Below, in pieces: positions 3,001 through 58,473 of a stretch of 64,000 bases of DNA. Each line of letters starts with the position of its first letter. Within the stretch, counting starts at the first letter, position 1. The notes below the pieces were generated by a model. That model was not told where the DNA came from, did not search any database, and saw nothing but the letters and a program-made list of their open reading frames with translations. The stretch is from Progne subis subis (Eukaryota > Chordata > Aves > Passeriformes > Hirundinidae), in contig JAKJHU010000023.1 in NCBI GenBank assembly GCA_022316685.1, positions 4,544,692-4,608,691 on the forward strand, written 5' to 3'. The translations under genes and the position numbers were made by a program.

Positions 3001-4322
3001 CTTGCTGGTTGTCTTGACAGGAATTAATTTTCTTCCTTATACTATTGCTGATGCTTACCTTGATATACCTCTGAATGGGAATCTCTAAGTACATAATTTT
3101 AGGCCTATAAAATTAATTCAAGTAAGTACATATCTAAAGTAAATGAACTCAGAATTAACCCTAAAATTAAAATAGCCACAAAATTATATTTGGTTTCGTG
3201 AGTGTTGCCCTAATGTACCCTGATACTTCAGCTGATGATCTATCTCTATGATTTTTTTTTTTTTTTAAGTCATACTTATTCAGCTATTTTAATTTTATAT
3301 GTCAGTCTTTCTCATTCATTCACAGTGAATACTGGGAGGACTGGTCTGTCTTTTGGAAGTACCTACAGGAAACTGTAAAACATCCTGGAGAGTTTATCTG
3401 CAGTTAAATAGACACGAAATTAAAAGGTCACATCTGTAGATGTTCTCAGAAATCTCAAAGTCCCTGTGATAAACAGTGGACAATAAGGCATTAAAACATG
3501 AACAAGAAAGCAAAATGTCTTCATATTTTTTGTTGTTAGAAACAGATAAATTATACTATTTTCAGTCCTTTCCTACACACACCACAAGAAAGATAAGAAT
3601 TTCTGAGCATGTTTAAACTAAAATGAAGTGAAACAACTGAGTTTCATTATCAAATAATTTTAATATAAAATATTTTGTTCATACTAGTTAAGGCTTTACC
3701 TAATAATATTTAATCTTAACAAAATATTAATAAATTTTAAAATAATATTAAGTCTTAAGATTTAATAAGTAGGTACAAGGCAATTAAATAATAACAAATC
3801 TAATTTTTAGGTTTTCATAACATGTGTAAGGTTTTCATAAATCAAGGTCCGCACATGCTTAGTATTTTTTTGATTGCTCAGAAATGTCAAATAAAACCAC
3901 ACGGTCAAAAGAAATATGTGATTCTCTGCAGTTCAACAAATGAGTCCACACAATAGGAAACTTTGTCCCTTACTTTCACTGCAGTCAGGGGCTAATTCAT
4001 GCATATGTACCCTGTTTTCCTACCTTGTAAAGATCATCCCTCCCTACTGGCAATGGCAAAACACGAGAAGAGCTGGATGCAATTTCACAGCATCTGACTG
4101 TGGCTGCCAAAGGCCCTTCACCCATGAGCTTGGGAGCAGCTACTTTCAGCACAAGCATGGACTTCCCACACTGTTTCTTGTCGAGAGCTGAAAAAAATTA
4201 AAAGTCTTTACCTAGAGGAGTGAAAGTTTTACAAGGCTGAATTAACAATTTAAAACATCATTATGATTATCTATCAAGCCAGAAAGTGTGCATTGATCAA
4301 TACAGTAATTGGACTACAACCC
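1..4322. other. AT-rich intergenic DNA, no gene recognised
   Basis: Short open frames here have no recognisable domain, biased composition or splice context, and I take them as chance. Low-complexity pieces include poly-T runs near 1495-1511 and 3250-3266 and a short TG run near 2555-2574. I saw no CR1 or LTR boundary. Old diverged repeats could be missed by eye. Confidence 0.6.
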
Positions 4323-4983
4323 TGTCTTGGTTTGGAGACAAATCTGGGGGAAAACCCCTGTATATGATCCCTCTGGGAAGCAAACTTAAGTGGCTCTTCC
4401 CTCTAACTAGTCTGAAAAAAAAAACTTTTGTGGAGAAAAGTGGAAAAAGCTATTTTACTAAACAAATAAAGTGCATATAAGTATAAAGAATGAATAATAT
4501 GAAACAATAAAATTTCTCGTTTTGAAGTGAGATGGCAAATTGAGAAAGTCCTTGCTGTGGGTGTAGCTCGGCTCTCTCTCAGTTTCTCTTCAGTTTTAGT
4601 CTCTCTGGCGCTGCTGGAAAATGCTGAGATCTAGGCCCCGGTGGGCCGCAGGTGCAGCCCCCAGTGCTCCCCTGGGTTTTCAGTCTAGAGCAGGTTTAAA
4701 CAGTTCCACGAAAAAGAAAGAAAAAAAACAGTCTAGGGAACTTCTCTGCTTTAGCTAGCTGAAACTAACTAAAAGCAAAAAAGATCTCTGTCTTGCAGTC
4801 TTTTTAAGCCTCCGCCGAACCCCGTCTGGAGAAGAATGTGGAGGAGTCAGGCAGTTTTCTTAAAACAAACTCCGCGCTTTTCCTTGCTCTTAGAACTAGT
4901 CTTAAAGGCACAGGACTTAATATACAGAGTCCAAACAGAACAGACGATTGGGGATACAAGCATTATAAAGTTACCTTAGGACA
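4323..4983 (-). repeat. 3' LTR of the edited provirus (hypermutated)
   Basis: A 661-bp LTR bounded by TG..CA. In the minus orientation it begins TGTCCTAAGG and ends CCAAGACA. Aligned by hand to the LTR at 10339-10997, it carries about 29 C-to-T changes on the plus strand, which are G-to-A on the proviral coding strand. About 23 are at GG, five at GA and one at GT. Other differences are a single G/T transversion near the left end, an A-run length change, and one G-to-A that is in the other LTR instead. Confidence 0.93.
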
Positions 4984-5003
4984 TTCTACTCTTTATCTCT
5001 ATA
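4984..5003 (-). other. Putative polypurine tract
   Basis: Directly upstream (minus sense) of the 3' LTR lies a run of almost only A and G, broken by isolated T residues. This is the expected position for the plus-strand primer. Some A residues may be edited G. It is assigned from position and composition only. Confidence 0.55.
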
Positions 5004-5339
5004 TTGTTAATTTACTAAAACTTATATATACTCTAGCTCTACACACACATACATCTATATAAAAAAAAATATGCAATATACAACTACATACAGTGGCAGT
5101 ATTATTCAATACACAATGATAATTACACATGGTTTTTACTTAACAATTAAATCTCTTTGGGGTACACATTGTGTGGTTCTATCTTTTTGCATTACTCACT
5201 ATGTGCAGCTTGGCTCTTGAGCAAAGATAATCTTACGGATGGGATCTTTTGTACTTGAAGTAGGATTGATCTAAACTGTCTTCTCTAACAGACTTTTTAC
5301 ATGTACTACTGGGACTTTTTCTTTATCTACTGTATGTAG

Positions 5340-6060
5340 GGGCTTAGATTGGGCAGGGCTTGCTCGGTTGGTGGAACTTCGGGTGTTAATTAACTAGGTG
5401 GCTTTTGCTAGATGCTGCTCCTAATTTTTGAATGATCCCCCACCCAGTGCTTTCAGGGTGGTTTTTAGCAGTCTATTGTATTTTTTTACTTTCTTTGAAG
5501 CTGGTGCATGATAGGGGATATGGTACACTTACTTAATGCCATGTTCTTTAGCTTAGTTGTTGATGAGGCTGTTTTTGAAATGAGTTCTATTGTCTGACTT
5601 AATTTTCTTAGGGGTACTATGCTTCTAAAGAACTTGCTTTTTAAGGCCCAGGATGGTGTTCTGGGCAGTAGCGTGAGGCACAGGGTAGGTTTTTAGTTAT
5701 TTAGTTGTGGCTTCTACTATGGTTAGCACGTAGCGCTTGCCTTGGCGGGTTTGGGGAAGGGTGATGTAGTTAATCTGCTAGGCTTCTTCATACTTATATT
5801 TGGACTATTGCCTACTATACTATAGGGGCTTTACTTGCTTGGCTTGTTTGATGGTAGCACACGTCTCACAGTCATGGATGACTTGAGAAATACTGTCTAT
5901 GGTTAGATTCACTCTTTGGTCTTGGGCTCACTTATAGGTGGCATTTCTGCCTTGGTGACTTGAGGCATTATGGGCTTATTGAGCTAGGAACAACTCTCTT
6001 TTGTGTTGCTAATCTAAGTCTATTTTTGACACTTTTATTTTTGTAGCTTGATTTACTTGC
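5340..6060 (-). pseudogene. pol: Integrase region of edited pol (broken)
   Basis: Integrase would join viral cDNA to host DNA. On the minus strand, HDCETC (zinc-finger cysteines) is encoded near 5861-5876 and a catalytic-core SDN at about 5589-5597. Both are in the frame shared with protease and RT. In-frame TAG stops at 5778-5780, 5805-5807 and 5820-5822 read CTA on the plus strand, each one G-to-A step from TGG tryptophan. I saw no frameshift between the landmarks. It is not functional. The overall layout resembles ERVL-type integrase, but that is a judgement by eye. The domain edges are approximate. Confidence 0.8.
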
Positions 6061-6099
6061 TTGTTGTTTTGGTGCTCTTCATTAGCTTGACTTTTGGGG

Positions 6100-6500
6100 A
6101 CATGGGCATTTACATGACGGACTTTGACAGGTAGCTTTTTTACTTGAGTGGCAATGTCTTTTTACTTATTTGCAGCTTAGATTGGCTTTCTCTTGCGCTG
6201 CTAATTGGTTTTTTTCTATTTTTCTAGCTATCTTTACAGAGCATTAGCTACTATTCACGAATCAGTGTAGAGGTAGAGCTTTGGCTACTTTTTTTTTTCA
6301 GCAATGTTTAGGGCTAGTTGAACAGCTTTGAGTTCAGCAAGTTGGCTTGACTCACTTTTTCTTTTAGTGGCTTGTGCAACTTGTTGTGTGGGGCTCTATA
6401 CGGCTGCTTTCTACTTTTGTTTTATTTTTACGATGCGGCAGGAACTGTCAGTGAAAAGAGCGTAGCAAGTTTCTTTTGCTGGCAGTTGGTTGTATGGTGG
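6100..6500 (-). pseudogene. pol: RNase H region of edited pol (broken)
   Basis: RNase H degrades the RNA of the RNA:DNA hybrid during reverse transcription. The minus strand reads FTDSS at 6441-6455, the position of the first catalytic Asp, where the family normally has TDG or TDGS. The serine is one G-to-A step from glycine. The landmark is in the same frame as RT and integrase. Edges are approximate and the region is closed by stops. Confidence 0.65.
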
Positions 6501-6699
6501 AGCTTCTTTAGCACGTGTTACTTGTTCTTGCTTTTTTTCATTTATGAGACTAAAGTTTTCACCTTCCGGCCAGTTTGTAATTATTTTTAGAATCTTAGGG
6601 CGATTTGGGTTTTTAATGTGGGCGCGCTGAGTGATGAGGGTAATCTATTTGCTTTATGTGGTATTGGTGGCATGGTGGGTAGAGGGTACTTCTGCTTTA

Positions 6700-7990
6700 A
6701 ACATCCATCCCAGCACTGGTAGTCGAGGTGCCAGAAGGAGTTGTGTTTCAGTACTTACTACTTCTGAGGCAGCTTGAATTCTTTTATAGGCGGCTAAGAT
6801 TTCTTTTTCTGTTGGAGTGTAGTTGGCTTTGGACTTTTTGTAGCTTTGGTTTTAGAATCTTAGTGGCTGGCTCTGAGTCTCTTCAGGTACTTTCTGCCAA
6901 AGGCTCTAGGACAGGCTATTGTTCTCGGCTGCTGAGTAGAGCACGTTCTTTACATCTGGTCTTGTCTTGACTGGGCTAAGGGCTACTGTATGAGCGATTT
7001 TTTGCTTGATCTGGGCAAAGGCTTGTTGCTGTTCAGGGCCTTAGTGGAAATTATTTTTCTTGCGGGTGACTAGGTAGAGAGGGCTTACAATCTGGCTGTA
7101 CTCAGGAATGTGCATCTTTTAGAAACTTATGGCGCTTAGGAAAGCTTGTGTTTCTTTTTTGTTAGTTGGTGGACACATTGCTGTGATTTTGTTGATGATT
7201 TCAGTGGGAATCTGACGCTTTCTATCTTGCTACTTTATTCTTAGAAACTGGATCTCTCGAGCAGGTTCTTTAACTTTGCTTTTCTTGATAGCAAAGCTAG
7301 CTTTTAGGAGAATCTGGATGATCTTTTTTCTTTTCTTAAACACTTTTATTGCTGTGTTCTCTCATACAATGATGTCATTAATGTATTGTAGATGTTCTGG
7401 AGCTTCACTTTTTTTTAGTGCAGCTTGAATTAGTCTATGGCAGATGGTGGGGCTGTGTTTCTACCCTTGGGGCAGTCGGTTCTAGGTGTACTGCACACTT
7501 TTCTAGGTGAAAGCAAACTGAGGCTTGCATTCTGCAGCCAGAGGAATGGAGAAAAATGCGTTAGCAATGTTAATTGTGGTGTATTATTTTGCTGCTTTGG
7601 ACTCTAGCTTGTACTGGAGTTCTAGCATGTCTGGCACAGCAGTGCTTAAAGGTGGAGTTACTTCGTTCAAGGCATGGTAGTCTACGGTCAATTTCTATTT
7701 TTCGTTAGACTTGCGCACAGGCTAGATGGGGTTATTGAAGGGTGAGTGGGTTTTGCTGACTACCCCTTGGGTCTCTAGCTTACGGATTATTTTGTGGATG
7801 GGGATCACAGTATTTTGAGTTGTTCTGTACTGTCGGCGATGCACTGTTGAAGTGGCAATTGGCACTTGTTGCTCTTCTACTTTTAGAAGACTTACAGCAG
7901 ATGGGTTTTCTGATAGTCTAGGCAAGGTATTTAACTGCTTAACATCTCTTGTTTTTACAGCTGCTATCTTGAATGCTTACTTAAATCTCT
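6700..7990 (-). pseudogene. pol: Reverse transcriptase region of edited pol (broken)
   Basis: The RT start is readable as an open stretch at 7722-7925, with the finger-region phrase GVVSKTHSPFNNPI at its end. The active-site box reads YIND at 7374-7385, where the family has YxDD, so the first aspartate has become asparagine. That is one G-to-A change (GAY to AAY) and would abolish polymerase activity. A connection-domain phrase, YTPTEKE, lies near 6800-6830. All are in the frame of protease and integrase. Numerous TAG/TAA stops interrupt it. Identification as RT is firm; class is less so. Confidence 0.88.
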
Positions 7991-7999
7991 TCGGGTTTT

Positions 8000-8260
8000 T
8001 GTAATAGCTATTCTGGAGGAAGTTTATGCTTAAAATGCACGGAGCCTCTGGGCTAGTCACAATAGGGTGTCTTTTCTACTCATTTTTAGTTAGGCTCACA
8101 TCAGCTTTTACTAAAGTAAAATTTTGTGAGCTCCCTGTCACTCTAGCAATGGAAACAGATTCTTCCCCCACATGTCTTGATGGGAGTAATGTGCATTGTG
8201 CACTAGTGTTAACTAAGGCTTCATATTTTTGTGGTTTTGATGTGCTAGGCTAACGAATTT
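8000..8260 (-). pseudogene. pro: Retroviral protease region (broken)
   Basis: The minus strand reads ALVNTSAQCTLLPS around 8190-8220. The family's catalytic triplet is DTG, usually followed by A. Here it is N-T-S at 8202-8210, both changes being single G-to-A steps. It lies just upstream of RT in the same frame, the usual order. A downstream in-frame TAG closes it. It would be inactive. The rest of the fold is not verifiable by eye. Confidence 0.75.
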
Positions 8261-8269
8261 ACACAGTCT

Positions 8270-9707
8270 AAAAAATACGGTTTTCTCTAGCTTTTACTTG
8301 GTTAGAGGCAGGGCCCCTCTAAGCTTGATTATCCCTATTTCCCTGGGTAACTGGAGCTGCTTCTTTCTTGATAGAACTTTTTTTTACAGTTTTGCTATCT
8401 AACAATTCATGCAGCTGTTGTGTTATAGCATTAGTAGATTCTCTATCTTATTTTTTCATGTTTTTTCTACAATCACGCAGGAAGGACTACAGCTTAGCTT
8501 GTGGAATGCTTTTTCTTTCTCTATCTAGGGAATGTTTGCGTGTGGTGCTAGAGCTCTTAACTTGTACTGCAGAGATTTGGAGAATGTTCTCTTTGAGTTC
8601 TTTGTGATTCTCTTCTATCTTGTCTGCTAATCCCTGCACTTGTGTTTCTAAAGCTGCGATTCTTGCATGTGTTGGACTATGCATGGCATTTGCATATGTT
8701 CGGAGCTTCTTCGCTATATCTAGCACAGTTTTTTCTGTTTTATCTCGCTTTATTATTGCTAAAGCAGAGGAGTATTTTTGTGGCTCAAGTTGTACAAGTT
8801 TTTGCTACATTACAGGTGTACATGGTACTAAGTCGGGGTTCTTAGTGTTTAGGTTATCTGAGAAGACAATCTCTGCTACTGCTATTTCTCTTAAGCGCTG
8901 AATTCTTTGTTTAATGGTTTTCTACTGAGTTTGCTGCAGATAGAGATCATCGGCACATAGATATCTTTGTGCCATGCTTCTCAAGACTTGTTTTTAGAGA
9001 TTGCAAGGACTAGCCTCCCTCATTATTTCTTGGTTAATAACTGGATCATGTGATAGGGATCTAAGATGTTTTGCTTTAGTGCTATTTAGTATTGTAGCTT
9101 CGCTTGCAGCATTTCAAAGACGGACTAACTAACTAATTATAGATTCATTAGGTTGTTGAGTATAATTCTTTCTTAGGCTATGAAGGTCTTTCAGGGACAA
9201 GGACTTAATAGTATCTCTTGATTTTGCAGCAGTTGGTTGGGCTCTTGATCTTGTAGCAGTTGGTTGGGCTCTTGATGTTGTAGCAGTTGGTTGGGCTCTT
9301 GATCTTGTAGCAGCTGGTTGGGCTTCTGATTGTGTGCTAGTTGGTTGGACTCTTGATTTTGTACTAGTTGGTTGGGCTTCTGATTTTGTATCAGTTGGTT
9401 CAGCTTCTGATTGTGTATCATTAGTTGCTTCAGCTTCTGATTGTGTGTCAGGTGGTTTGACTTCTGACTGGGTGTCAGGAGGCACTGAGGATTTTTTACT
9501 TGAATCATTATTTACTGGTCGATTGGTTTTTTCTGTGTGCTTTTTTTTTTTTTTTACTGCAGCAACTGCTGGTGTCTTAGCTTTACTGTCTGGTTTAGCT
9601 GCAGCCTGAATAGCTGTGGGGTTGGCTGCAGCTTGAGTGACTGATTTATTTTCTTGCTCCCTTGCCTCTATCTGCTGCCTTATAGTGTTTAGCAGTGTGT
9701 GACTCAT
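8270..9707 (-). pseudogene. gag: gag-like region with repeat-rich and coiled-coil parts (broken)
   Basis: A start ATG is at 9705-9707, opening with MSHTLLNTIRQQIEAREQEN. The frame stays open to a TAG at 9129-9131. The first third is rich in Ala, Lys, Thr, Gln and Ser with a run of seven Lys-type residues. A series of ~10-residue repeats follows. Further on, in the same frame, 8487-8726 encodes a Leu/Ala/Glu-rich helical stretch that looks like a coiled coil. Position between primer site and protease makes it gag, the virion structural protein. I see no CCHC zinc knuckle. The repeat part probably survived editing because its coding strand has few GG pairs. It is not clear which gag family this is. 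Confidence 0.7.
9213..9480 (-). repeat. Tandem ~30-bp repeats coding a gag decapeptide array
   Basis: About nine imperfect copies of a ~27-33-bp unit, plus-strand core gttggttgggctcttgat. On the minus strand they code variants of AQPTATRSR, SEAQPTSTK and SEAEPTDTK. The array keeps frame, and its units change gradually from acidic (SEAE) to basic (SRAQ) along the protein. Confidence 0.85.
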
Positions 9708-10310
9708 TTTAGAAAAGCTATAAGCTATATAGAGGAAAGTCACTAGGTGAAACACTAGAGAGGTGGGGTCTTTAACATTCAGGAGACTTTGAATATTTTC
9801 TAAAAGTGATGTAACTGACTTAAAAGAGAAGAAGGAAAAAAGAGGCTGAAGAGCCTCATTTCCTACTCCTCCTCTAACAAACTGGGTGCAGTTATTGATA
9901 AATCTCTAAAACATGTTGCTGGAACTAGGACGCAGGGTAGGACGAAAAAACTATAAACTGAACATACTTAGAACAAACTCTAGTATCTTTATAAGCTTCT
10001 TGTAAGCCATAATTACTGAACTTAGCAAAATAACTATTTTAATTTGTGCATCTCTAGTGTAAAAGCTGTATGTTAAGGACAATATTGGAGCTATTTCTGG
10101 GTACGAAAACAAACTTAGGGACTAGAAAGGTATTAAGACTTTAAAAAAGCTTAGGGAACAGAAATGCAGAAAAGACTTTATTCTAAGAGACGTTAGGACT
10201 TCAAGAAGCAATATGGCTACTGTCTGTTTAATCTTTACTTAAAGGACAACAACAACAACAACAATAAAAAATGCAGTTAATAGTAATACAAGTTTTTTTT
10301 ACTCTTTCGT
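9708..10310 (-). other. 5' untranslated leader of the edited provirus
   Basis: Between the primer site and the gag ATG. It holds a (CAA)6 run at 10247-10264. The plus strand is rich in CTA and TTA, so the leader seems edited too, although the adjoining 5' LTR is not. No packaging signal can be assigned by eye. Confidence 0.6.
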
Positions 10311-10328
10311 GCCCCACGTTGGGCGCCA
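10311..10328 (-). other. Primer binding site, tRNA-Lys(1,2) type
   Basis: The minus strand reads TGGCGCCCAACGTGGGGC, an 18-nt match to the 3' end of tRNA-Lys(1,2) as I know it. It lies 10 nt inside the 5' LTR. This fixes the element's orientation as minus. The site is unedited, as expected because it is copied from the tRNA primer. Confidence 0.9.
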
Positions 10329-10338
10329 ATTAAGGGTA

Positions 10339-10997
10339 TGTCTTGGTTTGGAGACAAATCTGGGGGAAAACCCCTGTATAGGATCCCTCTGGGAAGCAAA
10401 CCCAAGTGGCCCCTCCCTCCAACCAGTCCGAAAAAAAACTTTTGTGGAGAAAAGTGGAAAAAGCTATTTTACTAAACAAATAAAGTGCATACAAGTATAA
10501 AGAATGAATAATATGAAACAATAAAATTTCTCGTTTTGAAGTGAGATGGCAAATTGAGAAAGTCCTTGCCGTGGGTGTAGCTCGGCTCTCTCTCAGTCTC
10601 TCCTCAGTCCCAGTCCCTCCGGCGCTGCTGGAAAATGCCGAGATCCAGGCCCCGGTGGGCCGCAGGTGCAGCCCCCAGTGCTCCCCTGGGTTTTCAGTCT
10701 AGAGCAGGTTTAAACAGTTCCACGAAAAAGAAAGAAAAAAAACAGTCCAGGGAACTTCTCTGCCCTAGCTAGCTGAAACTAACTAAAAGCAAAAAAGATC
10801 TCTGTCCTGCAGTCTTTCCAAGCCTCCGCCGAACCCCGTCCGGAGAAGAATGTGGAGGAGTCAGGCAGTTTTCTCAAAACAAACTCCGCGCTTTTCCTTG
10901 CTCTTAGAACCAGTCTTAAAGGCACAGGACTCAATATACAGAGTTCAAACAGAACAGACGATTGGGGATACAAGCATTATAAAGTTACCCTAGGACA
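10339..10997 (-). repeat. 5' LTR of the edited provirus (unedited)
   Basis: A 659-bp LTR bounded by TG..CA. It closely matches the solo LTR at 57808-58468 (opposite orientation) and the 3' LTR at 4323-4983. It keeps the CC runs that read CT or TT in the 3' LTR, so it is close to the unedited state. Its outer flank is ttccc. Confidence 0.93.
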
Positions 10998-13900
10998 TTC
11001 CCAAATATCAAAACTATATTCATGCTTTTGCAAAAGATAGCAACAGTTCAGACCATCTCTATAAGAATGTCATGCTTAAGGCATCCACCCCTTCTTTCTT
11101 TTCAGTTACATTCTACTGGAACGTGTTCCTTTCTTACAACAGCCTGGCCTGTTATCAACAGTATGTAATACACATGTTCATGGTTTGGTACTGATTGAGG
11201 TTAATTAGTGGTTCTTCTTACATAGATGTCTGGAATTATAACAAAAGGTTCAAAACCTACAATTAACAGTGGCAAGTAACCTGTAATTTTTTTTCCAACT
11301 CCTCTACTAATTCTGATTATTATCCACTGCACATTTGATTTCTTGGCATTTTCTTTGACCTCTTCACAGTGGAGATGAAAATTTCACTGTTTAGGTAAGA
11401 GAAGTGCCATGTGGTTTCTCTACCACCAGAGATACAGCATGTTAACCTCTCATACTCATTTTGGGGGTACTGCCCCACCAAGACATAGCCTCTTACTCAT
11501 AATTCTTTATCAATTGCATTGCATAAAATGTGCTTGAATTCAGTGACCCTGACATTCATAACTGTGAAACGAAAAAGGTATTTTAATCACACAGCTAGGA
11601 CTGCAGAATTCTGTTTAAGACTAGTATACACTTTTTTTCTTTCCTCCCAATTTCTATATGAACCTTTCTGAAAGAAAAATTATGAAGGAGAAAATTATTT
11701 ATGTTGCTTTTGATGCAATATTCTCCATGGACAGTATCCTGAGGAACTATTCTCCTGTGAGCATATGCAGGTATAAATTTTCCTGAAATTTGAACTAGAG
11801 ATCTCTAAGGTAAATCTGAACCTTGACTGGCTTTGGAACTTTGGGATTGGTAACTAGGACTAGTGTGCTGGATTCAGTGTCTCATTTCAAGGCCCTTTTG
11901 AACTCCTTCTGTTAATGCTTGAAATCTGCAAAATATTCGGAGAACATTGAGATATTAAAGTTACATCTAGTTAAAACAGAAGTAAAAGGGATCAATGAAT
12001 CCTTTCAAGCTCATGCTGTCTGGTAGTCTGCATGTCACTCTCCAAAATGCATTACACTTTAAAAAAATGGAAGGTTACACTTCTCACCTCTGAAGGCAGA
12101 TGAAACAGTACGTGGCACTGACATTTGTCCACTAAAGCCCATTCAGTCTTTTTCAATCTTTTCAATAAGGGTCAGGGAGTCAGAACTCCCTCCTGCCAAT
12201 CACAAAATTATAATCTGTTTGCTGTATGGGAAAGTGCTCGCAGCAGGTTAGTTTTAGAGTTCACAGAAGATGTCTCAAAATTCTGCCCATGGTCCTGAGT
12301 TTGCAAGAAACTAATACAAATACACATAAAAACAGAAATATACCAGCATAATTCCTCCTTTCTTAGCTAAAGTCTGTAGTCTGCATCACTAGTTATTGAT
12401 CAGCAGAATTACCATACATATTTCAGACGCACAATACAATGGATCCACAACAAAGATCCTCAGAGCCCTCTCACAGTAAAGGAGAAATGGCTTAGCTGCA
12501 GTTGCTCTTCCTTCTTAGCTGCAGCTGCTGTATGGATGAAAGAAGCACCAAGCCTGGTATGGCAGGTTGGTGTGTATCCCCTGGGAGCATCTACACTTCC
12601 TCACCTTCCTGTGTGACTTCCAGGCATTCAGCTCCTGAGCCAGGCAGACAACAGGCCCTTGTCTTGCTGGTTAAATTGTGAACCATATGCAGAACCACTG
12701 ATGCAGTTCTGTGAGTATTCTGGGGTTTGTTGACTGGTTGTCACAAGCTTAGACACTCAGGAGCCAGTAGTTTATTTCAGGCTGCTCATACACGAGGGAA
12801 GTTGTTGAGAGTATGTCCCTCAGACATTACTGACAGGTGACCTTCATCTTCAAATAGTAATGAAATATGAGTCATTCTGATTCAGAAATAGGAAATCAGA
12901 GTCATTTGCCTCAGAAAAAATGTCTTTGAGTTCTCGGGACAACAGCCATTATAAACAGAACTTTAAAAAATGCAGGTGTAATGTTCTTTTCTTTTAATAA
13001 ACATGAATATTTCCATATCCAAATGATTAACTGCCTATACATGTCCTAAATTAAGCACCTACTGTTATGTCTGCCATATGGTAGCTCTTAACACATAATC
13101 CTTCCTATCTCTAAGACAACTTTGTGTACATTTGTTTGGAAGCCCAATAAAGCACAACATTTTTCCAGTTAATGTGGGGAGAACAGCTAAAACTAGAGTT
13201 CATTGATGATAAATGTATCCTTTATGTTAGTTGCAGACAATTTTAAATCTGCTTACATGCCTGTCCTTCCTAGTGATTCCTAAATAAGATGTTCTCCACC
13301 GTGCCACATGAACTCCTAGAATAATTACATTGATGTCAACAAAGAGGTACTGGAAGATACATCTATGAACAATTTTTTTTTGATGGACATAATACAAGGT
13401 TCTGTTTAAAAAAAGACAATTTTGAAAAAGAAAGCCAAAATACTATACGAATTTTTCAAATTATATCTTCTACATCTTCTACTGCTTCTCAAGTTCTTCA
13501 CAGTCTTTATCACAACTAAATCAAATACTTGTAGATGTCATGAAGATTGTCATCCTTCTGTCTGTATTTAACAATTTAAAGAAGATAATCTATCTTTGCT
13601 TTATATTTTGTCTCTTCCTTGTTCTTATGGCTGTACTTTTGTTTTCTTCTCCACACCCTAAATTTATTTAATAAAGTCACCAGAGGTATATCAAGGACTT
13701 TGTGAATGTTCAGTTAAACTATATCATATTTTTTCCTGACAGTTGGTGTTTGGCACAATCATAATTTTTAAAAAGTTTTGGCAGGAATTTGCTTAGGGAA
13801 AAATGCATTTTATCTTATTATTTCAAATTGCCCATCATCATTGTAAGGTCTGTAAGTTAAAAAAACCATTCAGGGTTGAAGCTTGGAATGCCAGTTACTG

Positions 13901-19356: not shown

Positions 19357-19362
19357 CAAAAT

Positions 19363-19651
19363 TGCTGCCTCCACTGAGGCGTTCCTGGTTCAGGAACGTC
19401 ACGGCAGCCACACCCAGGCTCCTCGGGCCATCAGCTCACAGACACCAATATGGTGGATGGCAAATGGCATTTATTAACTGATTACATGGAGTTATAAAAC
19501 TTCTGTTCACTGCGTCACTTCAGTCTGCTTACGTTACAAACTAAGTGTCGCTTACCTTATCAGGGACACTAAACAACTAAGTGTTGAGGGAGGGGTTCTG
19601 TCTGCCCATACAGCGCGATATCTTCCGACCGCCTGTCCCTAATCTCCCACA
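19363..19651 (-). repeat. 3' LTR of the gag-env provirus
   Basis: A 289-bp LTR. In minus sense it starts TGTGGGAGATTAGGG. A polyadenylation signal AATAAA (plus-strand tttatt) is at 19470-19475. It pairs with 22537-22829, differing by scattered substitutions and small indels, including a 4-bp-longer left part in the other copy. Confidence 0.92.
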
Positions 19652-19665
19652 TTCTCCCCCCCCTC
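19652..19665 (-). other. Polypurine tract
   Basis: Minus strand GAGGGGGGGGAGAA, immediately upstream of the 3' LTR: a textbook position and composition for plus-strand priming. Confidence 0.88.
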
Positions 19666-19777
19666 ATGATTAAGTAAAAAACCTATAAAAGTATAAATGT
19701 TATAAAAAATGCAAAAGCTGTTAAAGTTAGTATAATAGGATACAAAAGTGATATAACATGTTAGTAATAAGTGCACT

Positions 19778-20950
19778 TCAAGGTAATTGCAGGCGTTCAA
19801 CAAATAAGATGTCGACTTTCTCTAAACGGCTTCTAACAAATGACACTAACTTGTTCAAAATGCAAGGCCCAAAAATCAATACCAAGAGTATCATGGTGAG
19901 AGGGCCTATCAGGGTGGAAACAAGGGTGGCCAGGCATGGGGACTGGTTGAACCATGACTCAAACCATCCTTGTTGGGACTCTCTCTTTCTCTGGGCTAAT
20001 CTTTCTCTTAGTTGGGCCATGGAGTCTCGCACGACTCCAGTATGGTCTGCATAAAATCAGCATTCTTCTCTCAAGGCGGCACACAGGCCTCCTTGCTGCA
20101 TGAGCAAGAGGTCCAGTCCTCGTCTGTTCTGCAGGATGACTTCTGAAAGTGAGGAGATAGACTCCTCCAGAGAGGAGATGGATTTTTCAATTCTTAACAA
20201 GTCCTCATCAATTGTCATTTACAGCTGAGAAAGTCCTTGGTGTTGGGTCATGAGAGCTGAAACACCTGTGGCTGTACCGGCAGCTCCTAGGCCAAGGAGC
20301 ATTGCAATGGTTATACCAGTCATTACTTCTCTTTTGCGGGGCTGGATGGTTTCTTCTAAAAAGCGATACATTTCCTCTTCTTGGTGATACAGGACTCTAG
20401 GAACAATAAGAACTTGGACACAAAAGTCAGCAAGGTTATTGAATTTACCAAGGTACACACAGGGGGTTATTCTAGATTGTTGACAAACCCACATTCCTGG
20501 TATGAACGGGACTGCCCACTTATCAGTCTTTTCGCTAGGTTGGATGAACTCAGCACAAATGTTTCCCATCTGCTTTGCTAAGGTTACATTGCCAAAGCAC
20601 TTGCCTCGGCCTGTGACTTGACTCAGGGTAATTTCCCTCCAGGGGGTGTCCCATCTACAGTTGTGTGGATTATCTGCTGCAGAATATTCGAAAGGAACAT
20701 CAAGGGCGACACCCTCATAAAAAGGAGGTTCTGCATTATAACATAACCAGCATGATTTTGTAAAATTTGGATTGGATTGGTTCAATGACAAAAAGGTAGC
20801 ATTTAACACACTAAGAAATGGATTGTAAGGAGCTGACTTAGGTTTTTGGTAAATAGCTAAAGGACTAGATGAGGAGGAGGTGCTAGGTGTGGCCTCCCTC
20901 TTGTGTCTGCGTGCTGTAAGATTCTGATAGGGTTCAATTGATTTGCACCA
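19778..20950 (-). pseudogene. env: Gamma-type retroviral env, SU and TM parts (broken)
   Basis: Env mediates receptor binding and membrane fusion. The minus strand at 20222-20950 reads part of the surface subunit with the covalent-link motif CWLC at 20741-20752. A basic cleavage site, RKR, follows, then a hydrophobic fusion-peptide-like stretch rich in Gly and Ala. A TAA stop at 20219-20221 cuts the ectodomain, and a TGA at 20057-20059 falls directly after the CX6C of the TM cysteine motif. The same frame reopens at 19778-20032 with the membrane span [20 protein letters not shown] and a short tail. So the frame is conserved and only stops break it. CWLC plus the TM cysteine motif mark gamma-type env. 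The amino end, including the signal peptide, is missing because gag capsid sequence adjoins near 20940. Confidence 0.9.
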
Positions 20951-22418
20951 GTTACTAAGGCTAGTTGCTTTGCACAATTGTCTTCCCACTCTTGTTTAAA
21001 AACTATCATCCCTGCCCCATCAAAAATCAATCTGCAAGTTTGCTTTATGTCAAACGGGAGCATGTCATCCCCTCCAAAACACTATCAATGAGAGTAGAAA
21101 CCATAGCTGAATTGATCCCTCTGTCAGTTATTGCTTTAACAATTGCTTGTACATCCTTAGGATTTACTGGTGAGTACGTTCTCTGGTTTCCACCTGCCCC
21201 CCCGTCTCTGACTGGAAAAGCCAGTGTGGCCGATGGACCCCAATCGGCGCATGCCATTTTTAATCTTGTCCAGTCTGTGAGAGGAGTTTGTTCTTTTTCT
21301 GACTTCCCCTCAACCCAAGTAGAAACATTGTTGTTACTGATTTTATATACTGTTACTTCTTCTCTGTCTGAGCCGGAGCCAGAGCCCGCTGCAGAGGACT
21401 GGCTGTCCCAGTCCTCTGAGCTAGAGTCTGATTCAGAGTCGGAACTCGACTGACTGGCTGCTTCCGGGCTCTGGACCCTTTTGGTGGGGCTCCGACCCCG
21501 CCCCTTTCCCTCAGGGCTGGGCCACTCCTTCCCTCTGGGCCCCCGCCCCTTAAAACTGTGTTCCTTAAAAGAATGTGCTTTTTGGCAAGCATTCTGATTA
21601 GCTTTAATTCCCCCTTTGAGTTTTCCCCCCTTCTTTTGCTCGCGCGTGTCCGCGTTATCAAACAGTCTTTGTTTTCATTGGCAATGTGCCTGCTATCTAA
21701 AAGACCTTCTTTGTTTTCTGCATCCCCGGTATCTAACAAACATTCCTTGTTCAGTCCAACTGCATTCCTGCACTCTCCCAGGGATTCAGTGCAATCCCGT
21801 GCCCACATAAGGTGGGGGTCCCTCTTCAACCCCCTCCAACAGCAATTCAGTGGCAGAATTTTTGGCAGCATTCCTGGCTTCCTCAGCTAAACCATCCCAA
21901 AATAATTGTGCCTGTCTTTTTCCCTCAGCAGGTGACCCTGGGCTTGAAGGCTTTGAAGAGAGCTTTTGTTCCTCCGAGTCTCTGCACTCGGCAGAATTAA
22001 CCTTATCAACAGCCTGAACACTGTCCCTGACCTTCAGATCACATTTTTTTACACTCTGACAATCCTCTTTAAAAGTTTCCTCTGAAAAAGTTTGCATTGC
22101 TGCCCGCACCCCTAATTGCGGAGTAAATCTTAAACAATTCTGGGCAGCTTTACAGGTCTCCTGCTCTTGCAGAGCTTTTTGCAAAGCCTGCACAACTTTT
22201 CCCCATGATTTAAGATTTTTCCCTGAGCCAGAAGACATTGTCTCCTGGGCCAGAGCTTTCGTGCATTGTTCCCAAATATCTGGGTGGAGAATGTCCACCG
22301 GTCGATCAATGACCCCAAGTTGCAGAAGCCTCGTCACTGCAAGGGTAAAATCTTTTGCTTAACAATCAATCCCCCACTGCTTATGAATCTGAGATACGAC
22401 CTTCACGAGAGCTTCCAT
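20860..22418 (-). pseudogene. gag: gag: matrix, PPPY late domain, partial capsid (broken)
   Basis: The start ATG is at 22416-22418, opening MEALVKVVSQ. A TAA stop at codon 20 (22359-22361) breaks it at once. The same frame then runs to a TGA at 21786-21788, and just before it encodes GPPPYVGTGL, a PPPY late-budding motif. The same frame is seen again at 21045-21257 (TYSPVNPKDVQAIVKAI), which looks like the capsid amino part. A frameshift near 21045-21063 moves the next piece (LPFDIKQTCRLIF) to another frame. Capsid text stops near 20940, where env begins. The matrix and PPPY region recalls alpharetroviral gag and the capsid recalls beta/alpha types. That is family knowledge, not a search. Confidence 0.82.
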
Positions 22419-22515
22419 CCTCTTCGCGGGTCCTGGGAACGTCCTCCTCACCGAGCTGGCCCACTGCTCAGCCGTCGTTCACCCATCCAGGCCATTCCCA
22501 TTCTCCCAGGCGATG

Positions 22516-22534
22516 TCCCGGGGTTTCGGCACCA
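22516..22534 (-). other. Primer binding site, tRNA-Phe-like with one extra C
   Basis: The minus strand reads TGGTGCCGAAACCCCGGGA, 2 nt inside the 5' LTR. As I know it, the tRNA-Phe primer complement is the same with three C in the middle run rather than four. The extra C is likely a later change or slippage. Confidence 0.75.
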
Positions 22535-22536
22535 CT

Positions 22537-22829
22537 TGCTGCCTCCGCTGAGGCGACGCGACCTGGTTCAGGAACAACACGGCAGCCACACCCAGGCTGC
22601 TCAGTCCATTAGCTCACAGACACCAGTGTGGTGGGCGGCAAATGGCATTTATTAACTGGTTACATGGGGTTATAAAACCTCTGTTTGCTACATCACTTCC
22701 CTCTGCTTACATTACAAACTAGGTGTTGCTTAGCTTATCAAGGGCACTAAACAACTAAGTGTTGAGGGAGGGGTTCTGTCTACCTGTACAACGCGATATC
22801 TTCCGACCGCCTGTCCCTAATCTCCCACA
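22537..22829 (-). repeat. 5' LTR of the gag-env provirus
   Basis: A 293-bp partner of 19363-19651, with AATAAA on the minus strand at 22648-22653. It is followed on the right by the TSD CAAAAT. Confidence 0.92.
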
Positions 22830-52545: not shown

Positions 52546-53241
52546 ATAACCTGTGACTCGTTCCGTCCCCCACCGGGTGGACGCTGACCTCCGGGAAGCT
52601 CGGGTCAGCACAGCTACAAGAATGTTCCCAGTTCGGATGGGCACACAGGTTATCTTTACCTGCTGGCTCGGCTTCTCAGCAGCAGCTGGACCAAATAGTG
52701 TCGTGACAGCAATGGCAGCAGAAGAGAAGAGGATGGCTCTCAGCTTTGCAGGTTAAAAGGTGTTTATTCAGGCCCAGCTGCAGGAAGTCCGCAGCTGGTC
52801 CAAACCTCAGTCCAGAGAGACCAGTGAGCGAGAGAGGAAAGAAGAGCAGAGAGGATTTGAATCTCCCTCCTCCACCTTATAAGCGGGGGAAGGGTTCCAG
52901 GGAGGATACAACAAGACAACAAATCAGGGGATTCAGGGGGTAACAAGGTGTGCCCACCCCCAAGCCCTGGACTACTAAAATACAGAGCCAAAGGAATTCC
53001 CCCCAGGGAACCTATCACCTGAAGCCCTCTCCCTGAGATTTCACAATCTGGGAGGGATCCCCAAAGTGATAGACAGGCTGCCCCAGAGCGGGAGGTGGGG
53101 GGGGATGTTCCAGGTCAGGTGAGGGGTGGAGGGGTGGGAGGACTGACACAAAACACAGAATTGGGGATACAGTGAAATGAACCATAACATAAACTTCTTA
53201 TAAAAACCTAACAAAACAATTCTCGCACCACCACAATAACC
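52546..53241 (-). mobile_element. Nested solo LTR A with TSD ATAACC
   Basis: The LTR itself is 52552-53235 (684 bp), minus orientation. ATAACC lies directly on both sides (52546-52551 and 53236-53241), so this is a solo LTR left by LTR-LTR recombination, 6-bp TSD. TATA-like cttataag is at 52876-52883 and AATAAA (minus) at 52763-52768. It belongs to the same family as LTR B. Confidence 0.92.
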
Positions 53242-53372
53242 CATAAGCAGCTTGGGAAACTGCTAATGGGAGGGGTCACAAAAGCAGGTTTCCCTGGGCA
53301 GCTGTTTTTGTGACATTTAAAAAACCCACAAGGGAACTGTTCTAAGTTGTCAGTGGGATCCATGACTCTAAG
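53242..53372 (+). repeat. Outer LTR segment between the two nested LTRs
   Basis: About 131 bp that belongs to neither nested LTR. By position it is part of the interrupted outer ERVL-like LTR. It ends in TCTAAG, the left TSD of LTR B. Confidence 0.7.
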
Positions 53373-54057
53373 TGTGGCGGTGCAAGAATTGTTTTATCAA
53401 GTTTTATAAGAAGTTTTATGTTATGGTACATTTCACTGTGCCCCCAGTTCTGTAACAGTCCATCCCCTTTGAATTGTTTCATGTCAATCATCCCACCCCC
53501 CACCTATCATTGTCAATCCCCTCCCCCCCTTCTCCCCCCGCCCCCCCCGCCCCCTGCTCTGGGCCATCCTGTCTATCACTTCGGATCTCCTCCCCGGCTT
53601 GGGAAATTCCCGGAGGGGCGTCGAGTGATAGGCTGGTGCCCAGGGAATCCCCTTTTCCCTTTTTGTCAGTGGTCAGAGGCTTAGAAGTGGACATCCCCTG
53701 TTACCCCCCGAATTCCCTGATTTGCTATCCTGTTGAAACTTCCCCTGCACCCTCCCCCGCTTATAAGATCAGAGAGGGAAATTCAAACGCGCTCTGGCCG
53801 GCAGATTGGATGAGCTGCGGAGCTCCCGCAGCTCGGCTTGAGTAAACCATCTTTAAACCTGCTCAGCCAAGAGCCATCCTTTCATCTACCACCACAGTCA
53901 CAGCACAGTCTGGGCCAGCTGCTGCTGAGAAGCCGAGTCCAGCAGGTAAAGATAGCCTGCTTGCAAACCCGGACCGGAACGCTTTGGCCGCTGTGCAGAT
54001 CCGAGCCAGCCAGGGGCCTGTGTCCGCCCAGCGCTGAAAGGCACAGCCACATCTAAG
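53367..54057 (+). mobile_element. Nested solo LTR B with TSD TCTAAG
   Basis: The LTR is 53373-54051 (679 bp), plus orientation, starting TGTGGCGGTGCAAGAATTG. TCTAAG flanks it at 53367-53372 and 54052-54057. TATA-like cttataag is at 53760-53767; the poly-A signal is a variant, AGTAAA, at 53841-53846. Clearly related to LTR A but diverged from it (CG-to-TG type and other changes). C-rich runs lie at 53505-53555. Confidence 0.92.
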
Positions 54058-56271: not shown

Positions 56272-57807
56272 AAAAAAGGCTGATTCCTATTCCTACCACA
56301 AAACACCCAAATAAAATAAAACCAAAAATCCCCCAGTATTTTCATGGGATCTAAGCATCATTGACCATGGTAAAAAGAGGTCAATTTATATAAATGTCTT
56401 ATAGTTAGTCAAAGCTCTGTATGATATGTTGAATTTTAACCTTAATTTAAAACTGCAGCAAAGCCATCGGGGAGCCAGTGGCCTGAAGTTAACATCATAA
56501 TTGTCAGTGGTGTTGCTGATCTCAGTGACAAAGCTTCTACTGCAGAGTAACACAGTTAGCAGAGGGAGCAGATGAAAGGATGTGTTGCTCAAATGCCTTC
56601 TCACTCAGTCACCCAGAAGATGCTGGAGATGCCACATAGAGTGGTCCATGGTTAATTCAGGTATTCAGATTAAATTTAACTCCAAAATATGCTTTCAGCA
56701 CACAAGTTTCTCTCTTAAGAGATAACACATTAATCCTTTTCCCAAGTAGAGTTCTTTGAAATACTACTATATTAATAGTTTCATTACTGAAACTATTGTA
56801 TTAAAGAAAATATCTTTTCAGTGCAGAATATGAACAGAAGATAGTATTTTGCACTAGACTTCTAGAATAAAACACTGACTAAAGAAGAGATAATGCAAAT
56901 GCAATTATGACAAGGCTAGAATAACATGTAAAATAGCAAAATATTCATTCGAGGAGTCTACTTGATAACATTTTCTATTTTTTGTGTATCTTTAAGGAAG
57001 TTTTTTTGACTAAAATTTATACCATTTATAATAAATGCAGATGGTTTTAAAAAACCCAAGCAATCAAACAAACAAACAAAAGAAAATTCTTTCAGAATTG
57101 ACAACTCAATACAGGACAGAAACTTTTCTAACCCAAAGTCATCCGAAACATTTCATCACAACTGAGAGATATAGAAATTTGTTTCAATACTTGCTTGTAA
57201 AAATTTCTGATGAGTTTATGGATTAAGAGGGAATGATCAGGCACTGAATAAAGCTTAATTAAATGAGCTTCACATGTTTTGAAGAAAAAGAAGTGACTTT
57301 TGCTAGTTTTATGATTGTATTACAGACAACTTTTTAAAAGAGAGAGGATTTAAAGACTGCCAAGAAACGAAATATCAAAATATAAGTTATTAATGCTTCT
57401 TCAGTGTCATAACTACAATAACATCTAGATAATTCCTCACAGATACAGAGCATTTGAATAGTTGACTGCAGAAAATGTATAGAATAGATGCTTAGCAATA
57501 TTTGCCATGTTCAACCTACATTAGTGTATTTACACACAAAGAACTGTGGCCTTGTTTTAATTAAAACAGTCGCCTCTAAAATAAAGCTCGGTGGACCCTT
57601 GCTGAAATACAAAGGTTAACATAAATCTAACACAACTGAGGACAACCAAAAAACCTCTTTGCATAAGGTGATGTGACAAAAAAGTGGTTTTATGACTATA
57701 GACCTAAGTGCATATCACATTGCACTCTTTATACAGCACTGGCTGCTCACTTTGTTTACCCTTCCTTGTAGTGCTCACATTTATGTTCATAACTTTACAT
57801 ATGAATG
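55641..57807. other. Intergenic DNA, no gene recognised
   Basis: Holds a 34-base poly-A at 56236-56269. No retrogene or LINE body could be seen directly upstream of it. Confidence 0.6.
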
Positions 57808-58473
57808 TGTCCTAGGGTAACTTTATGATGCTTGTATCCCCAATCGTCTGTTCTGTTTGTGCTGTATATTGAGTTCTGTGCCTTTAAGACTAGGTTCTAA
57901 GAGCAAGGAGAAGCGCGGAGTTTGTTTTGAGAAAACTGCCTGACTCCTCCACATTCTTCTGCGGACGGTGTTCGGCGGAGGCTTAGAGAGACTGCAGGAC
58001 AGAGATCTTTTTGCTTTTAGTTAGTTTCAGCTAGCTAGGGCAGAGAAGTTCCCTGGACTGGTTTTTTTTTTCTTTCTTTTTTCTTGGAACTGTTTAAACC
58101 TGCCCTGGACTGAAAACCCAGGGGAGCACTGGGGGCTGCACCTGCGGCCCACCGGGGCCTGGAGTCGGCATTTTCCAGCAGCGCCGGAGGGACTGGGACT
58201 GAGGAGAGACTGAGAGAGAGCCGAGCTCCACCCACGACAAGGACTTTCTCAATTTGCCATCTCACTCCAGAACGAGAGGTTTTATTGTTTCATATTATTC
58301 ATTCTTTATACTTGTATGCACTTTATTTGTTTAGTAAAATAGTTTTTTCCACTTTTCTCCACAAAGGTTTTTTTTTCGGACTGGTTGGAGGGAGGGGCCA
58401 CTTGGGTTTGCTTCCCAGAGGGATCCTATACAGGGGTTTTCCCCCAAATTTGTCTCCAAACCAGGACAGAATG
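57803..58473 (+). mobile_element. Solo LTR of the edited provirus family, TSD GAATG
   Basis: The LTR is 57808-58468 (661 bp), plus orientation, starting TGTCCTAGGGTAAC and ending CCAAACCAGGACA. GAATG flanks it at 57803-57807 and 58469-58473. It matches the reverse complement of the LTRs at 10339-10997 and 4323-4983. It keeps GG pairs where the edited LTR has AG, so it serves as an outgroup for the direction of change. Confidence 0.95.

Follow-up and report, generated by a model that had tools for sequence, protein, structure and literature searches.

A G-to-A-edited provirus with one largely spared LTR in the passerine Progne subis subis

Layout of the provirus

The window analyzed here is a stretch of 64,000 nucleotides of Progne subis subis DNA (assembly GCA_022316685.1, contig JAKJHU010000023.1, positions 4,544,692 to 4,608,691 of the forward strand). 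Its minus strand carries a provirus with an LTR pair, a primer binding site (PBS), and an interior. A solo LTR of the same family lies elsewhere in the window and was used as an outgroup. The features are listed below in window coordinates, with those of the provirus in proviral order.

4323-10997 (approximate), minus strand: provirus
10998-11002, minus strand: 5' flank GGGAA, presumed 5-bp target duplicate, of which the last two bases may be retained viral AA
10339-10997, minus strand: 5' LTR, TG...CA, 659 nt, largely spared, GG 54 and CC 38
10311-10328, minus strand: PBS with its GG and GGGG intact, identical to the Lys1,2 PBS given in PMC8775094
4986-10308, minus strand: proviral interior, 5323 nt, with heavy G-to-A editing
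9906-10308, minus strand: leader directly downstream of the PBS, 403 nt, GG 1 and CC 17 as a composition count alone
9132-9905, minus strand: longest open piece, 258 codons
8322-8939, minus strand: conserved segment upstream of the reverse transcriptase (RT) region, with relatives annotated as hypothetical proteins
7584-7976, minus strand: pieces of the RT region
6204-6704, minus strand: pieces of the RNase H region, with several relatives named RNase H type-1
4984-5000, minus strand: AA dinucleotide ahead of the 3' LTR and a presumed, possibly edited, polypurine tract, with roles assigned from sequence
4323-4983, minus strand: 3' LTR, 661 nt, edited at 29 G and at 23 of 54 GG
4318-4322, minus strand: 3' flank GGGTT, presumed partner target duplicate
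57808-58468, plus strand: solo LTR

The solo LTR is flanked by a perfect 5-bp duplicate, GAATG, at 57803-57807 and 58469-58473. Target duplications of 5 bp are described for avian ERV3/ERVL-like LTR elements (PMC6523648). The presumed duplicates of the provirus, GGGAA and GGGTT, match at 3/5 bases, and a match at 3/5 or more arises by chance with a probability of 0.10. The two mismatched bases would be accounted for if viral AA was retained at the 5' end, and within the element AA likewise stands ahead of the 3' LTR.

Protein searches with three open pieces of the interior returned 57 relatives in total (14, 19, and 24). Among the matches listed, those with a named organism came from Hirundo, Zosterops, Pitangus, and Turdus, all Passeriformes, and were annotated as hypothetical or by a domain name only. 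Thirteen open-piece queries from the provirus, two of them overlapping others, matched no Pfam family at the cut-off, and the whole window gave no Rfam match at the gathering threshold. When one relative was used as query against viral contigs, a single weak locus came up (41% identity, query residues 62-96). Within the longest open piece, a unit of about 27 bp (nine codons) is tandemly repeated at 9215-9467 on the minus strand.

G-to-A editing of the 3' LTR and the interior

Both proviral LTRs and the solo LTR were aligned on the proviral sense strand over 659 positions. The two proviral LTRs differ by 31 substitutions and one run-length indel of 2 bases. Twenty-nine of the substitutions are G>A, with G in the 5' LTR and A in the 3' LTR; the other two are one A>G and one C>A. 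C>T was found at 0/146 C (Fisher, G>A versus C>T, p = 2e-9). The sequence-only reading of this DNA had counted about 29 differences in one direction between these LTRs, and its counts and coordinates were right.

The base that follows the edited G is strongly skewed. G>A changes occurred at 23/54 GG, 5/46 GA, 0/32 GC, and 1/28 GT sites, giving p = 9e-6 for GG and GA against GC and GT and p = 3e-8 for GG against all other contexts. In 100,000 random draws of 29 guanines from the LTR, the mean number at GG was 9.8 and the maximum 20, so the observed 23 was never reached and the GG excess holds after base composition is allowed for. The stricter Hypermut-style GRD test gave 22/78 versus 7/82 (p = 0.0018).

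The solo LTR has G at 28 of the 29 sites, which polarizes the change to the 3' LTR. At the one site left unpolarized, alignment column 191, the solo LTR also has A. The single A>G, in column 64, is not polarizable by the solo LTR and could itself reflect a G>A edit of the 5' LTR in GG context. The solo LTR departs from bases common to both proviral LTRs at 26 positions. At nine sites A is shared by the proviral LTRs where the solo LTR has G (4 GG, 4 GA, and 1 GT), with the reverse at two (p = 0.065). These shared A sites make up 9/15 transitions when 5 poorly aligned columns are dropped (p = 0.004) and 9/20 when they are kept (p = 0.04). Because nine such sites stand against two of the reverse kind, the 5' LTR is possibly not wholly unedited; it may carry a few first-wave or inherited, older edits, as in the mouse Mtv proviruses compared below.

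Edited guanines in the 3' LTR include 5/17 in CpG, all of them CGG, and 24/143 outside CpG. Together with the lack of C>T, these counts support the earlier judgment that CpG decay does not explain the pattern. The unedited GG sites of the 3' LTR are clustered, with 12 consecutive at LTR positions 277-347 and 6 consecutive at 161-174. Such clustering points to stretches that were protected or structured, or to an enzyme that acted patchily. A quick fold of four LTR parts did not decide whether secondary structure lies behind the unedited GG block.

Four other repeat pairs in the window served as controls, and none was one-sided. The pair 19362/22536 had 32 substitutions (G>A 3, A>G 4, C>T 10, T>C 8, and others 7), and the pair 52856/53787 had 67 substitutions in 246 (A>G 15, C>T 14, G>A 7, T>C 7, and others 24). 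The pairs 40428/41445 and 36521/38318 had 6 and 3 substitutions, respectively. Two of these pairs belong to other elements of the window. At 19362-22829 on the minus strand lies a second retroviral element, with an LTR-like pair (19362-19651 and 22536-22829, about 88% identical) whose differences are not one-sided, an Env-like ORF at 20219-20989 (Pfam TLV_coat, E 1e-34), and a Gag-like ORF at 21786-22337 (Pfam Retro_M, E 6e-7). Diverged inverted repeat pieces span 52646-53959 (52646-53235 and 53373-53959), and the one piece tested showed mixed substitutions.

The proviral interior is depleted of GG, with 58 GG against 329 CC in 5323 nt. The host flanks have normal GG/CC counts of 58/52 and 51/47, as judged by composition only. 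One sense frame of the interior, read over 1544 codons, holds 49 stops (29 TAG, 16 TAA, and 4 TGA), only 3 Trp, and 20 Gly. Conserved Trp codons have become stops at 8807, 8489, and 8450 in the segment upstream of RT, at 7724, 7697, and 7586 in the RT region, and at 6656, 6647, 6413, and 6398 in the RNase H region.

The interior was then compared with its relatives, using 67 of 68 alignments. The 1965 amino-acid differences included 1039 G>A, 97 double G>A, 135 A>G, 73 T>C, and 53 C>T, and 128 of the 133 residues that relatives place opposite an interior stop are Trp; these hit counts are not independent. Therefore, alignment columns were counted as well, with conserved columns defined by at least three relatives and 80% agreement. 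Residues vulnerable to G>A were often lost, with 1/12 W, 3/12 G, 3/15 R, 9/17 D, 22/34 E, and 4/7 M columns kept. Columns of P (26/26), Q (20/20), T (21/21), N (14/14), F (11/11), H (7/7), and Y (8/8) were unchanged. Ala (GC) columns were kept at 37/40 and Val (GT) columns at 21/22. Expressed as columns changed, Gly (GG) stood at 9/12, Asp and Glu (GA) at 20/51, Ala at 3/40, and Val at 1/22 (GG and GA versus GC and GT, p = 4e-7). The codon context of the interior thus repeats the context of the LTR.

Of 512 columns with at least three relatives, 49 showed the same single G>A and 9 the same double G>A against at least 80% of the relatives, compared with 2 A>G, 2 A>C, 1 T>C, and 0 C>T. Against one relative (P0038), 144 codons held 26 single and 2 double amino-acid-changing G>A. 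Edits would be hidden wherever a relative is itself edited, as some may be. We found no clear 5'-to-3' gradient in 334-nt bins or across the three protein regions. At 9855-9872 on the minus strand, four GG survive within 20 nt beside the nearly GG-empty leader.

These results confirm that the footprint is real and very clear. It was proposed as the editing of one LTR; the 3' LTR is indeed edited, and that extent was too narrow because the interior is edited as well. The element is an edited provirus with one largely spared LTR.

Boundaries of the edited zone and the order of reverse transcription

A two-change-point fit of GG versus CC along 12500-2800 put the left edge of the edited zone between 10245 and 10373 (2 log units). 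The right edge fell between 4822 and 5160, where the 3' LTR starts. The best left edge is 10366-10372, about 30 nt inside the 5' LTR. Placing the left edge directly downstream of the PBS costs 1.45 log units relative to this best fit and stays inside the support interval. The roughly 305 nt after the PBS contain no GG where the minus-strand average of the window, taken as a stand-in for an unedited leader, would give 12. The editing load is also graded. Interior Trp columns were changed at 11/12, with the first G of TGG edited in all of them, versus 23/54 GG in the 3' LTR (p = 0.003). The load is therefore highest in the interior, partial in the 3' LTR, and low or absent in the 5' LTR.

In retroviral reverse transcription, the final 5' LTR and PBS derive from plus-strand strong-stop DNA. 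During the process, displacement makes the 3' LTR minus strand single-stranded for a second time. Our preferred explanation, with a probability of about 75%, is that a CC-preferring deaminase of the AID/APOBEC family edited the minus-strand cDNA mostly after plus-strand strong-stop DNA had been made. Before integration, a single-stranded-DNA cytosine deaminase with this preference would have turned many C of the minus-strand cDNA into U, and copying would have fixed them as plus-strand G-to-A at GG. Most of the deamination would have come later than the synthesis of plus-strand strong-stop DNA (U3-R-U5-PBS), which templates the 5' LTR. The 5' LTR and PBS would then be largely clean because their template predated most of the deamination. 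The minus strand of the 3' LTR would have been shielded at first as duplex and re-exposed by the strand-displacement synthesis that completes the 5' LTR, leaving it less edited than the interior. Deamination with this timing would thus leave the heaviest load in the interior, a partial one in the 3' LTR, and hardly any in the 5' LTR and PBS, which is the pattern observed. The analysis establishes the direction, the context, the unaltered flanks, the boundary position, and the graded load, from which the enzyme and the timing are inferred. Since the unedited GG of the 3' LTR are clustered, timing alone is not a full explanation. Of the explanations considered, only a deaminase acting on minus-strand cDNA, as was first suggested for this LTR, agrees with direction, context, and strand alike.

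The alternative that survives best, although we consider it unlikely, is that editing hit the whole provirus, both LTRs included, and that ectopic recombination or gene conversion afterwards exchanged the 5' LTR for an unedited family copy. The incomplete match of the target duplicates would agree with such an exchange, and the solo LTR shows that at least one other family copy exists. On the other side, GGG is common to both flanks, and the AA of the 5' flank has its counterpart ahead of the 3' LTR. Once the G>A edits are set aside, the 659 aligned positions of the proviral LTRs hold just 2 substitutions and one run-length indel. A replacement donor must therefore have been nearly identical as well, yet the one family copy at hand departs at 26 positions. 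Furthermore, the edited zone begins near the LTR/PBS edge, a position that is predicted by reverse transcription and not by recombination.

A still less probable alternative keeps ordinary timing and derives the strong-stop DNA, by intermolecular plus-strand transfer, from another cDNA of that particle that had escaped editing. This would also yield a clean 5' LTR and PBS with otherwise nearly identical LTRs. However, it requires a hardly edited and a heavily edited cDNA in one particle, and taken alone it gives no reason to expect the 3' LTR to be less edited than the interior. Plus-strand transfer is also mostly intramolecular, which counts against it.

Editing by AID itself, of either the cDNA or the integrated locus, is improbable. 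AID is present in birds, and its motif is WRC, or GYW on the opposite strand. On the minus strand, the edited C was preceded by C in 23/29 cases, by T in 5, by A in 1, and by G in 0, so that the next base on the plus strand was G or A in 28/29. Plus-strand GYW sites were edited at 1/41 versus 28/119 for other G (p = 0.0017), and the usual WRC preference did not appear. Editing was also limited to one strand and to the element. AID, which the sequence-only reading had listed among its candidate editors, is hence a poor fit. In favor of AID, APOBEC3 genes are described as specific to eutherian mammals (PMC5399452). A zebra finch APOBEC1 homolog is mentioned elsewhere (PMC3880073). Because AID-type sites are avoided, APOBEC3 is eutherian-specific, and a zebra finch APOBEC1 homolog is on record, an APOBEC1-like enzyme is a candidate editor.

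Ordinary decay after integration, by CpG deamination or regional mutation bias, has a negligible probability: its only point in favor is the 5/29 edited G in CpG, all CGG, and against it stand the absence of sense-strand C>T, the normal flanks, the control repeats without one-sidedness, and the intact interior residues that are immune to G>A.

Known edited elements and implications

The closest parallel to the proposed editing of cDNA after strong-stop synthesis comes from mouse. Shaffer et al. 2025 described 3'-LTR-specific G>A in the mouse proviruses Mtv17, Mtv21, Mtv61, and Mtv62 and in the MLV provirus Mpmv5 (PMC12548423). In the passages on the four Mtv proviruses, the LTRs have 2-16 differences, all but one being 3'-LTR-specific G>A, and strand displacement is proposed as the explanation (PMC12548423). 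The same authors state that such LTR differences were unreported for other retroviruses (PMC12548423). As described there, the Mtv proviruses resemble the present one in having G>A throughout the provirus, extra G>A only in the 3' LTR, runs of consecutive G>A, and normal flanks (shown for Mtv21), and the same displacement explanation applies. They differ in that the Mtv LTRs share many edits and are set apart by only 2-16 substitutions, whereas the present LTRs are set apart by 29 G>A and the 5' LTR has at most about 10 visible candidate edits. The host also differs, being a passerine and outside the eutherian range described for APOBEC3.

Strong editing of LTR elements has been described in songbirds, in zebra finch above all (PMC6523648, PMC6497032). 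Ultra-edited TguERVl1_I-int and TguLTRK1_1 of zebra finch are listed after Knisbacher and Levanon 2016 (Table 3, PMC12548423). The sequence-only reading had suggested that published cases of edited avian LTR elements exist, and these sources bear it out. The present provirus shares with these elements the heavy G>A of an LTR element in a passerine. The listed length of TguERVl1_I-int, 5,486 (PMC12548423), is close to that of the present interior, about 5.3 kb. The loads are roughly similar, with 71.5 G>A per kb given for zebra finch, against 44 per kb in the present 3' LTR (29/659) and the counts relative to P0038 given above for the interior. The passages on the zebra finch elements do not say which LTR was edited. 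We know of no report of 3'-LTR-specific editing in birds among the matches listed in the open-licence literature. The present provirus combines songbird ERV hypermutation with 3'-LTR-specific editing, both of them published phenomena, within a single element.

HIV-1 and HERV-K proviruses edited by APOBEC3G show a GG context and stops at Trp codons. The present provirus resembles them in its GG context, minus-strand deamination, and Trp-codon stops; the editor of HIV-1 and HERV-K, unlike that of a passerine provirus, is a mammalian APOBEC3 enzyme. Such proviruses are mentioned in PMC8775094 and PMC12548423. HIV gradients are described as peaking 5' of polypurine tracts (PMC12548423), while the bins of the present provirus show no clear gradient.

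The provirus preserves a strong natural record of how the steps of reverse transcription follow one another, with the interior edited more than the 3' LTR and the 5' LTR and primer site largely spared. If our reading is right, it extends to a passerine host the effect described for mouse proviruses in 2025. The sharp GG context, with GC and GT avoided, also provides a yardstick for passerine deaminases.

Beyond this element, we put forward tentatively, at somewhat under even odds, that a passerine deaminase other than APOBEC3 has converged on a CC preference and acts mainly after strong-stop synthesis, so that avian proviruses regularly keep a clean 5' LTR and PBS beside a ruined interior. If so, an edited provirus would still have an intact upstream promoter. 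Dating by LTR-LTR divergence would also be inflated about 15-fold in such cases, and the present element shows how far it may err: at an assumed rate of 3e-9 per site per year, its age comes to about 0.5 Myr without the editing and 7.8 Myr with it.
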